Source: Halorubrum lacusprofundi ATCC 49239
GTDB taxonomy: Archaea; Halobacteriota; Halobacteria; Halobacteriales; Haloferacaceae
Direction of reading: 5' to 3'
Assembly (NCBI RefSeq): GCF_000022205.1
Contig: NC_012029.1
Span: 1,488,001 to 1,552,000, forward strand
DNA length: 64,000 bases
How positions within the stretch are numbered: the first letter of the stretch is position 1; each line of letters opens with the position of its first letter. Positions 13,371 to 39,721 of this stretch are shown piece after piece. The notes under the pieces are model-generated. The model was not told the DNA's origin. It saw only the letters and a list, made by a program, of their open reading frames with translations, and made no database searches. Position numbers and translations under genes: made by a program.

Positions 13371-13525
13371 CAGTGGTCATATTTCGTGTTCGCCCCAAGG
13401 GGGCTCCGGGCCTCATTCTGCAGAGCAATGAAAGAACAAAAGAATGTAGACGTACCGTACAGCGCTTGAAGAGCTGTTTTGACCGCATCTAGAGGGATCA
13501 CCGTGAGGAGTCGGACGGACTGATT

Positions 13526-14216
13526 GGTCGCGTTAAGTTTGGCGTGAATTGTGGTAGACGGCGAAGGCTTCGAGCCAATTTTGAGCTGTCTCAAGCGCGA
13601 CATTGCTGAAACTATTCGCAAACGATGATGTTCGACGTTCTATTTCCCAAAAGACACGTTCGATAGCATTCCGATTTCCATGCCGAATCACTCGGAATCG
13701 ATAGCCATCTTCAGCGAGGACTGGTCCAAGATAGTCTGCGTCATCGACGAGAAATTCCACGTCATTGAGCCTGTATCGCTGGTGTAGATCGGTCAGAAAC
13801 CATCGCGTCGTCTGTTTCGTTGTGGTCGGATAGAGGCTCACATGAAGGATTTCGTTGGTATATGGATCAACCGCGCCGTACAGCCAGAACTGCTGGCCGT
13901 GGAGGCGGATCATCTTTTCATCAACCGCGAGTTGATCCGCAGAAACCGTCGAGATCGGTTGTAGATCGGCTTTATGAACCCAGTTGTGAATAGCGACATG
14001 ACTCCGATCAACCCCAAATCTTTCGAGATGCTTACTTACCTCTCTCAGTGACATACCGGCTAAGTGACAGCGGATCCCTACTTCAATCGCCCAGCGCGGC
14101 GTTCGATCTCGCTCCACAAACGACAAGTCAATCCACGCGATACCTTCGCTGAGGCGGTCGAATTCTGCCATAGACACTCAGAACTCGTCCGCCCCATCCT
14201 CTAACTTAACGCGACC
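13526..14216 (-). mobile_element. IS6-family insertion sequence, copy 1 (691 bp)
   Basis: The ends are 14-bp perfect terminal inverted repeats (GGTCGCGTTAAGTT at each end). The element is flanked by the 8-bp direct repeat GACTGATT at 13518-13525 and 14217-14224, the duplication size expected of IS6. It contains one transposase gene whose stop codon lies in the left repeat and whose TATA-like TTAAGTTA lies in the right repeat. It looks nucleotide-identical to the copy at 37922-38612. The element sits immediately upstream of the TFB core promoter; the sequence left of the element would originally have been the upstream part of that promoter. Confidence 0.95.
13533..14177 (-). CDS. IS6-family DDE transposase
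   Basis: 214 residues, full length for the short archaeal IS6 type. An N-terminal helix-turn-helix region ([20 protein letters not shown]) precedes the DDE catalytic core: AVDEKMI (first Asp), LVDDADY (second Asp) and [11 protein letters not shown] (Glu), with about 34 residues between the last two. The frame is intact, so it may be active. The start is 39 bp from the element end and the TAA stop is inside the left repeat, an extremely compact design. Transcription runs away from the adjacent TFB gene. Confidence 0.95.
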
Positions 14217-14224
14217 GACTGATT

Positions 14225-14265
14225 CGGACAAAGGTTTAAATGCGGCAATAACCAGAAACCTTATA
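14225..14265 (+). promoter_or_regulatory. Core promoter of the first TFB gene, truncated by the IS
   Basis: ACAAAGGTTTAAAT at 14228-14241 forms a purine-rich BRE plus TATA box. The TATA centre is about 27 bp before ATG 14266, predicting a leaderless mRNA. The IS end is 12 nt from the first A. The same sequence with one change (TTTATAT) precedes the other TFB gene at the same distance from the second IS copy. Confidence 0.7.
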
Positions 14266-15219
14266 ATGGAACGTCCGAGCCGCCAACGCCAACAAGAGCG
14301 GGAGACCGAGCGAGAGTCGGACGAAGAAACGCTCTCCTGTCCGGAGTGCGATTCGACCGAGATTGTCACCGACGCCGACCAAGAACTCGTCTGCGAGGAC
14401 TGCGGCCTGGTGCTGGACGAACGGAACATCGACCGCGGGCCGGAGTGGCGCGCGTTCAACCACTCGGAGCGGCAGTCGAAGTCGCGCGTCGGCGCCCCGA
14501 TTACCGAGACGATGCACGACAAGGGGCTGACGACGACGATCGACTGGAAGGACAAGGACGCATACGGGCGGTCACTCTCCTCGGAGAAGCGGTCGCAGAT
14601 GCACCGGCTGCGCAAGTGGCAGGAGCGCATCCGGACGAAGGACGCGGGCGAACGCAATCTCCAGTTCGCGCTCTCTGAGATCGACCGGATGGCCAGCGCG
14701 CTGGGCGTCCCGCGATCGGTACGCGAAGTCGCCTCCGTCATTTATCGACGCGCGCTGAACGAGGACCTGATCCGCGGGCGGTCGATCGAGGGCGTCTCCA
14801 CCGCTGCCCTCTACGCCGCCTGCCGGCAGGAGGGGATCCCGCGGTCGCTCGACGAGGTCGCCGACGTGTCGCGTGTCCCGCAAAAGGAGATCGGGCGCAC
14901 GTACCGCTATATCTCACAGGAACTCGGCTTAGAGCTGAAGCCGGTCGACCCGAAACAGTTCGTTCCGCGGTTCGCGTCGGCGCTCCAGCTCAGCGAGGAG
15001 GTCCAGTCGAAGGCGACGGAGATCATCGATGTCTCCGCCGAGCAGGGGCTTCTCTCCGGGAAGTCACCCACGGGATTCGCCGCGGCCGCCATCTACGCCG
15101 CCTCCCTCCTCTGTAACGAGAAGAAGACCCAGCGCGAGGTCGCCGACGTCGCGCAGGTCACCGAGGTCACCATCCGCAACCGGTATCAGGAGCAGATCGA
15201 AGCGATGGGATTCCGCTAG
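14266..15219 (+). CDS. tfb: Transcription initiation factor IIB (TFB), copy 1
   Basis: 317 residues. A charged N-terminal tail is followed by a zinc ribbon with C25, C28, C43 and C46 ([10 protein letters not shown]...CEDCG), the B-finger/linker ([20 protein letters not shown]), and two cyclin repeats ([20 protein letters not shown] and [20 protein letters not shown]). TFB binds the TBP-TATA complex and BRE and recruits RNA polymerase. Haloarchaea carry several TFBs that act as alternative general factors with overlapping regulons. This one is adjacent to an IS in its promoter, with the gene itself intact. Confidence 0.97.
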
Positions 15220-15313
15220 GGCCGCGATCGAGTCCGTCGATCGGAGGAACAGCGCGTCTGACGCCCCGCCGTGATCGGGTTTTTAATTGGTACCGGGCGT
15301 ACCCTGCGACGAG

Positions 15314-37756: not shown

Positions 37757-37921
37757 GATCAAGAGTCGTCGAGGACGAGCCGAAGGCAGTTTGAACCCAT
37801 TATTTATATGGCTCGAATGTTCCGACTGCGAGAAATACGGAACTCAATAGAAGGACGCTCGATCTTTACATCCGATTATACAGGCCTTACAGCCGATTTC
37901 CAATAGTATCGTTGATACGAT

Positions 37922-38612
37922 GGTCGCGTTAAGTTTGGCGTGAATTGTGGTAGACGGCGAAGGCTTCGAGCCAATTTTGAGCTGTCTCAAGCGCGACATT
38001 GCTGAAACTATTCGCAAACGATGATGTTCGACGTTCTATTTCCCAAAAGACACGTTCGATAGCATTCCGATTTCCATGCCGAATCACTCGGAATCGATAG
38101 CCATCTTCAGCGAGGACTGGTCCAAGATAGTCTGCGTCATCGACGAGAAATTCCACGTCATTGAGCCTGTATCGCTGGTGTAGATCGGTCAGAAACCATC
38201 GCGTCGTCTGTTTCGTTGTGGTCGGATAGAGGCTCACATGAAGGATTTCGTTGGTATATGGATCAACCGCGCCGTACAGCCAGAACTGCTGGCCGTGGAG
38301 GCGGATCATCTTTTCATCAACCGCGAGTTGATCCGCAGAAACCGTCGAGATCGGTTGTAGATCGGCTTTATGAACCCAGTTGTGAATAGCGACATGACTC
38401 CGATCAACCCCAAATCTTTCGAGATGCTTACTTACCTCTCTCAGTGACATACCGGCTAAGTGACAGCGGATCCCTACTTCAATCGCCCAGCGCGGCGTTC
38501 GATCTCGCTCCACAAACGACAAGTCAATCCACGCGATACCTTCGCTGAGGCGGTCGAATTCTGCCATAGACACTCAGAACTCGTCCGCCCCATCCTCTAA
38601 CTTAACGCGACC
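37922..38612 (-). mobile_element. IS6-family insertion sequence, copy 2 (691 bp)
   Basis: It appears identical in sequence and length to the copy at 13526-14216, in the same orientation, with the 14-bp terminal inverted repeats. It is flanked by a different 8-bp duplication, GATACGAT, at 37914-37921 and 38613-38620. Different, internally matched duplications show this is an independent insertion and not the other end of a composite transposon. The right end is 12 nt from the BRE/TATA of the second TFB gene. The preceding gap (37757-37913) holds AT-rich DNA with no gene. Confidence 0.95.
37929..38573 (-). CDS. IS6-family DDE transposase (second copy)
   Basis: 214 residues, identical in translation to the transposase at 13533-14177, with intact HTH and DDE residues ([25 protein letters not shown]). 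The identity of both copies implies recent transposition. The gene is read away from the TFB gene, with its own TATA-like TTAAGTTA inside the right terminal repeat about 25-33 bp from the ATG. Confidence 0.95.
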   Translation of the reverse strand: MSMAEFDRLSEGIAWIDLSFVERDRTPRWAIEVGIRCHLAGMSLREVSKHLERFGVDRSHVAIHNWVHKADLQPISTVSADQLAVDEKMIRLHGQQFWLYGAVDPYTNEILHVSLYPTTTKQTTRWFLTDLHQRYRLNDVEFLVDDADYLGPVLAEDGYRFRVIRHGNRNAIERVFWEIERRTSSFANSFSNVALETAQNWLEAFAVYHNSRQT

Positions 38613-38620
38613 GATACGAT

Positions 38621-38660
38621 AGTACAAAGGTTTATATACTCTAGTGACTTACTATTGGTT
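38621..38660 (+). promoter_or_regulatory. Core promoter of the second TFB gene, truncated by the IS
   Basis: ACAAAGGTTTATATAC at 38624-38639 is a BRE plus TATA box. The predicted start site is near 38660, giving a leader of about 60 nt to ATG 38720, in contrast to the leaderless arrangement of the first TFB. Spacing from the IS end (12 nt) equals that at the first TFB. Confidence 0.65.
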
Positions 38661-38719: not shown

Positions 38720-39721
38720 ATGACTGAGACACACATACGCGGCTACAACGGCGAGACGGAGCGAGACCGGAGCACAGAGTCGACTGAATCGACGGCTGAG
38801 GAGGCGGAATCGACGGAAGAACGGACTACGACTTGTCCGGAATGCGAGGGCAACCTCATAACCGACACGGAACACGGCGAGACGGTCTGTTCCGAGTGCG
38901 GGCTCGTCGTCGAACAGGACTCGGTCGACCGCGGGCCGGAGTGGCGCGCCTTCGACTCCAGCGAGCGCGACAGCAAGTCCCGCGTGGGGGCCCCGACGAC
39001 GAACATGATGCACGACAAGGGGCTCTCGACGAACATCGGCTGGCAGGACAAAGACGCCTACGGGAAGTCGTTGTCTAGTCGTCAGCGCCAGCGGATGCAA
39101 CGGCTGCGCACCTGGAACGAGCGGTTCCGCACTCGCGACTCCAAAGAGCGGAACCTCAAGCAGGCACTCGGCGAGATAGACCGGATGGCCAGCGCGCTCG
39201 GCCTCCCCGACAACGTCCGCGAGACCGCCTCGGTCATCTATCGTCGCGCACTGAGCGAGAATCTCCTGCCGGGGCGCTCCATTGAGGGCGTTGCAACCGC
39301 AGCGCTGTACGCCGCCGCCAGACAGGCGGGGAACCCGCGGAGTCTCGACGAGATATCGGCGGTCTCTCGGGTCGACAAGATGGAGCTCACCCGGACGTAC
39401 CGATACGTGATCCGCGAGCTCAAACTGGAGATTCAGCCCGCAGACCCCGGAAGCTACGTCCCCCGGTTCGTCTCGCGCCTCGGCCTCTCCGAGGAAACAC
39501 AGCGGGTCGCCCGCGAACTGCTCGACAGTGCCAAACGCGCCGGGATCACCAGCGGGAAATCGCCGGTCGGACTCGCAGCCTCTGCGGTGTACGCGGCTGC
39601 ACTCCTCTCGAACGAGAAGGTAACCCAGAGCCAGGTGTCGGAGGTTGCCGACATCTCCGAAGTTACCATCCGGAACCGGTACAAGGAACTCCTCGATGCG
39701 AGTGAAGGACTGACCGCCTAA
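38720..39721 (+). CDS. tfb: Transcription initiation factor IIB (TFB), copy 2
   Basis: 333 residues. The N-terminal tail is long and acidic, rich in Ser/Thr/Glu. A zinc ribbon follows with C39, C42, C57 and C60, then [20 protein letters not shown] and two cyclin repeats ([40 protein letters not shown]). It is clearly paralogous to the TFB at 14266 but diverged throughout, so the two genes are old duplicates with probably different promoter preferences. Both have an identical IS at the same place upstream. A zinc-ribbon protein gene follows. Confidence 0.97.
   Translation: MTETHIRGYNGETERDRSTESTESTAEEAESTEERTTTCPECEGNLITDTEHGETVCSECGLVVEQDSVDRGPEWRAFDSSERDSKSRVGAPTTNMMHDKGLSTNIGWQDKDAYGKSLSSRQRQRMQRLRTWNERFRTRDSKERNLKQALGEIDRMASALGLPDNVRETASVIYRRALSENLLPGRSIEGVATAALYAAARQAGNPRSLDEISAVSRVDKMELTRTYRYVIRELKLEIQPADPGSYVPRFVSRLGLSEETQRVARELLDSAKRAGITSGKSPVGLAASAVYAAALLSNEKVTQSQVSEVADISEVTIRNRYKELLDASEGLTA

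Follow-up and report, generated by a model that had tools for sequence, protein, structure and literature searches.

Introduction

The 64,000-nt stretch of Halorubrum lacusprofundi DNA analysed here (the window) carries two copies of one insertion sequence (IS), each placed just upstream of the core promoter of a gene for the general transcription factor TFB. The locus thus raises the question of what brought the same element to the same position in front of two paralogous genes. Judging from sequence comparisons, the most likely answer is that an IS6-family element integrates in a promoter-directed manner, with docking on promoter-bound TBP/TFB as the probable means of placement.

Materials and methods

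IS copies were gathered at two levels, with 52 genomes covered in the genus and about 290 in the class, and split by sequence into three clades, c1 (the window IS), c2 (query L109) and c3 (query L104). De-duplicated flanks were then aligned at the IS end, END1 being the transposase 5′ end and END2 the other end. Two full-length copies (L009, L012) are bordered by N and short IS ends; these are probably assembly gaps at collapsed copies, not nested insertions, and were excluded from the statistics where the flank held N. The matrix that ranks target sites in the window was trained with the copies of the own genome left out. The promoter score was applied at a threshold of >4 bits to copies with intact duplications.

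Results

The two window copies are 691 bp long and 100% identical, and both end in the 14-bp terminal repeats GGTCGCGTTAAGTT, while their 8-bp target-site duplications differ (Table 1). Orientation is equal in both, with the 5′ end of the transposase gene (END1) toward tfb1 or tfb2. The IS end is separated from ACAAAGGTTTAWAT by 11 nt, composed of the 8-bp duplication and three further nucleotides, and the motif ACAAAGG accordingly begins at the 12th nucleotide past the IS end, at 14228 for copy 1 and at 38624 for copy 2. Both genes 3′ of the copies encode TFB (Pfam TFIIB, E=2e-52 for tfb1 and 3.9e-45 for tfb2). The preliminary description, which had noted two identical, same-oriented copies with duplications at equal spacing from two tfb promoters, is confirmed in this respect, the gap being 11 nt.

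Table 1. Features of the two insertion loci (window coordinates)
Feature	Coordinates	Strand	Remarks
Target-site duplication, left copy	13518..13525	.	GACTGATT
IS6-family element, copy 1	13526..14216	-	691 bp; TIRs 13526-13539 and 14203-14216
Transposase, copy 1	13533..14177	-	214 aa; GTG start (in-frame ATG 6 nt downstream); HTH and DDE
Target-site duplication, right copy	14217..14224	.	GACTGATT
BRE/TATA of tfb1	14228..14241	+	ACAAAGGTTTAAAT; top-scoring target site in window; conserved in genus
tfb1	14266..15219	+	317 aa; start codon at flank position 50
Target-site duplication, left copy	37914..37921	.	GATACGAT
IS6-family element, copy 2	37922..38612	-	identical to copy 1
Transposase, copy 2	37929..38573	-
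Target-site duplication, right copy	38613..38620	.	GATACGAT
BRE/TATA of tfb2	38624..38637	+	ACAAAGGTTTATAT; third-best target site in window
tfb2	38720..39721	+	333 aa; start codon at flank position 108

By its sequence the element is a member of the IS6 family and not of the TnGBS/ISLre2/ISKra4 group. The transposase matches the IS6 transposase model NF033587 with 151.3 bits (cutoff 125), and the 8-bp duplication and the short terminal repeats with GG tips are features of that family. The Pfam model DDE_Tnp_IS240 reaches 20.9 bits and so misses its cutoff of 27, and the p-MULT models remain far below theirs (ISH6, 17.6 bits with a cutoff of 240; IS256, 15.4 bits with a cutoff of 150). The DDE triad D86, D145 and E173 is nearly invariant among 40 transposase sequences. 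In the predicted structure (mean pLDDT 78) the protein has an RNase-H-like core that matches retroviral integrases and IstA with Z scores of about 13; a sequence search of the transposase profile against solved structures gave no match.

The own genome (3.69 Mb) holds one more intact copy (L003), on a different replicon, where the duplication ATACGATT is followed by TGGACGGTGTTTTAATA and then by the ATG of a zinc-type oxidoreductase gene at flank position 48. All three intact copies agree in spacing and orientation. Since this third copy agrees and the pattern holds across Halobacteria, the shared spacing is more than chance. Some older copies lie without any promoter; an example is a fourth copy in this genome (L004, G000:C2:921581-922271), 89% identical, with a truncated transposase and no duplication, which has no promoter beside END1 and is either an old copy or a recombination product.

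About 120 distinct sites in Halorubrum and other haloarchaea carry a BRE/TATA signature at flank positions 11-26 on the side of the transposase 5′ end, often with a start codon at 46-50, the layout of leaderless genes. In the 88 unique c1 END1 flanks the relative entropy at 11-26 is 6.48 (null maximum 1.37), whereas the END2 flanks of c1 show no signature and stay at background level. A+T amounts to 78, 92, 73, 98 and 86% at positions 19-23 of these 88 sites, C is favoured at 13 and A at 15-16; the signature reads C13..A15A16..TTTWW. It agrees with the Haloferax elements, BRE being CGAAA and TATA being TTWT in a genus where 72% of the transcripts are leaderless (PMC4983044). The AT maximum falls within 14-22 in 58/88 c1 END1 flanks (11 expected), and an open ATG is found at 46-50 in 19/88 c1 and 10/35 c2 END1 flanks versus 1/67 and 0/41 of the respective END2 flanks. 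Because the downstream start codons peak at 46-50, the 8-bp staggered cut can be placed directly upstream of the BRE, at about -47 to -40 as counted from the inferred start site, a position that leaves the core promoter intact. The duplicated DNA itself is not AT-rich, and the TATA box sits at a fixed distance beyond it. Clades c2 and c3 have a modal offset of exactly 11. Orientation is a matter of clade, c1 and c2 facing the host promoter with the transposase 5′ end and c3 using either end; several c3 copies (L157, L165, L170, L175, L183) illustrate equal promoter distance with either orientation.

The spacing persists in held-out material. With a matrix trained on c1, the exact offset is the best-matching position in 23/35 c2 END1 flanks versus 3/42 END2 flanks, and with one trained on c1 and c2 it is so in 19/30 c3 copies; since these last matches divide 10/9 between the ends, c3 retains the distance and not the orientation. 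The promoter score is passed by 23/23 c1 copies (leave-one-out), 20/23 c2 copies (held out) and 11/13 c3 copies (either end), against 1.4% of random window positions, 3.4% of shifted positions and 6.7% of the flanks of three unrelated DDE elements. Three unrelated IS in the same genomes have neither an AT peak nor an ATG peak. Among the negative controls is a 1069-bp DDE_Tnp_1 element that occurs nine times in near-identical form in one genome (L247-L255) and displays no promoter preference. The earlier proposal that insertion is promoter-directed is thus borne out by a sharp peak at fixed spacing across all copies in the own and related genomes.

There is a hint in the sequences that the preference may extend more widely than Halobacteria. 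Two IS6-like multi-copy elements of another class (G374, G330) have 2/11 and 2/6 copies at the offset. By eye, several G330 flanks resemble the signature. Several of the IS6-like copies L375-L386 and L387-L392, from another class of the phylum, have motifs resembling BRE/TATA at a comparable offset.

It remains to consider why tfb genes were hit. A matrix trained exclusively on other genomes ranks the tfb1 site first and the tfb2 site third among about 128,000 window positions, and for this reason both genes were probably hit owing to the strength of their core promoters, not to the TFB product. The tfb1 core promoter is conserved in 29 relatives that lack the IS, while the region further upstream is not; because these relatives keep it, the promoter must predate the IS. 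We also observed that CCAGAAACCTTATAATGG at 14252-14268, before the tfb1 start codon, is conserved strongly throughout the genus, more than BRE/TATA requires. In another species, a separate insertion of the same IS (L051, END1 flank; G042:C1:1314454-1315742) lies at the uspA promoter directly after the tfb1 orthologue; this promoter is uninterrupted at window position 15273, and the target ranks 26th in the window.

The targets as a whole are diverse, with 64 Pfam families matched in total by 62 downstream proteins, TFIIB in three and Usp in three. Among about 155 flanks, tfb genes were found beyond the window copies at L011, a clean hit at another tfb paralogue, and at L176, a looser one whose promoter-like site lies 5′ of the tfb core promoter. 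As roughly 0.3-0.5 such hits are expected by a rough estimate, this is a weak excess at most. TFB genes as a specific target were therefore dropped as unnecessary, and the special role once suggested for them finds no support, the site not being tfb-specific and the downstream genes being varied.

Discussion

Several explanations other than guidance by bound factors have to be weighed. Two identical copies 24 kb apart might suggest coincidence at two paralogous loci or a duplication made by the assembly, a possibility raised in the preliminary description; but the differing flanks and duplications, together with the uninterrupted tfb1 site of relatives, make the assembly explanation unlikely. 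Furthermore, the third copy is on a separate replicon, about 120 sites from different genera are in agreement, and the held-out tests refute this reading, so that its probability is negligible. Selection without targeting would mean random insertion followed by survival upstream of core promoters or by an advantage in front of tfb genes. Intragenic insertions are indeed costly and both window copies lie upstream of regulators. However, selection cannot yield single-nucleotide spacing or a fixed orientation at diverse genes, and unrelated IS under the same selection in the same genomes are without a peak, which makes this explanation very improbable. Selection for severing TFB genes from upstream control, as had been considered before, is not needed either because equal spacing is found at unrelated genes.

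A transposase that reads the sequence or shape of BRE/TATA, an AT-rich, bendable segment at a fixed distance, without any host protein is a more serious competitor, although we regard it as unlikely. The signal is after all a motif in the DNA sequence, and among the duplication-bearing sites a minority (L008, L021, L077, L090) are AT-rich with no obvious leaderless gene. On the other hand, the motif is the very recognition sequence of TFB and TBP, in equal register. TATA-bearing IS sites are followed by a leaderless ATG in 23/47 cases (49%) versus 10/70 (14%) for TATA-like window sites (p=6e-5), true leaderless promoters thus being 3.4 times as frequent among the IS sites as in this background, and sites without a strict TATA are still aligned with start codons (ATG at 46-52 in 15/76 versus 2/108 at END2). 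Because the leaderless ATG is enriched at TATA sites and the ATG peak persists without a strict TATA, we favour a bound TBP/TFB complex over naked DNA as what the element appears to recognize. We infer this preference rather than observe it, since selection against intragenic insertions contributes too: natural insertions have passed a selection able to remove intragenic hits but unable to create exact spacing.

With recognition of the bound complex, the transposase or transpososome would dock on promoter-bound TBP/TFB, possibly through contact with TFB at the BRE's upstream edge, and this docking would set the distance of insertion. The likely benefit would be a safe landing that leaves the host gene unbroken, though all sequence upstream of -47 is displaced by 0.7 kb.

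Comparable behaviour has been described for TnGBS, ISLre2 and ISKra4, prokaryotic Mutator-like DDE transposases (p-MULT 3 and 4) which insert 15-17 bp upstream of bacterial sigma-A promoters, contact with the initiation complex having been proposed; insertion is mostly oriented, with a few members going both ways, and orientation follows the asymmetry of the terminal repeats (PMC3942029). The window IS is likewise a DDE element inserting in oriented fashion at a fixed distance upstream of promoters. It differs in that the promoters are archaeal BRE/TATA and not sigma-A promoters, and in that an IS6 transposase is not a p-MULT transposase. Repeat asymmetry, moreover, does not track orientation here: as a cause it was rejected since it fails to separate oriented c1 from bidirectional c3, their 14-bp repeats being equally perfect.

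TFIIIB includes TBP and the TFIIB relative Brf1. The integrase of Ty3 is guided by TFIIIB/TFIIIC according to work cited in PMC3942029, whose authors likewise drew on this parallel. Placement by a TBP/TFIIB-type complex would be common to both, the contact being presumed for the window IS. Ty3, however, is a eukaryotic LTR retrotransposon that integrates near the start site of Pol III genes, whereas the window IS is a DNA element found about 40-47 bp upstream at ordinary archaeal promoters.

The archaeal IS6 clades (PMC7986276, PMC6807381) resemble the window IS in transposase family, length (~0.7 kb), 8-bp duplications and GG tips; where these papers treat archaeal members and target choice, they state no preference tied to TATA or BRE, and the word TATA occurs in neither. 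ISH6 (archaeal p-MULT 2) prefers AT-rich target DNA too and duplicates the AT-rich motif AANATNTT (PMC3942029), while the window IS duplicates DNA that is not AT-rich, with the TATA placed outside the duplication. We found no report of promoter targeting in archaea or in the IS6 family, although older or subscription literature may hold hints.

Promoter-guided transposition, known from a few bacterial elements and from yeast Ty3, is met here in archaea, and if our reading is correct it would be the parallel, for a DNA transposon in archaea, to the TFIIIB-guided integration of Ty3. The archaeal TBP/TFB machinery is minimal and easy to rebuild in vitro, which would offer a simple model for the steering of an integrase by TFIIB-type factors, and the existence of oriented (c1, c2) and non-oriented (c3) clades makes the cause of orientation testable. 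Every insertion would then mark a promoter occupied in the living cell, and given its near-absolute preference the element is a possible tool to map or tag active archaeal promoters. For tfb1 and tfb2, upstream control has been moved about 0.7 kb away and their regulation may change. More generally, such insertions would leave the core promoter in place but replace the regulatory sequence upstream of about -47, and thus provide a general route to the loss or swap of upstream control in haloarchaeal genes. We consider it fairly likely that a widespread archaeal group of IS6-type elements has evolved direct recognition of promoter-bound TBP/TFB and systematically rewires upstream regulation in haloarchaea.
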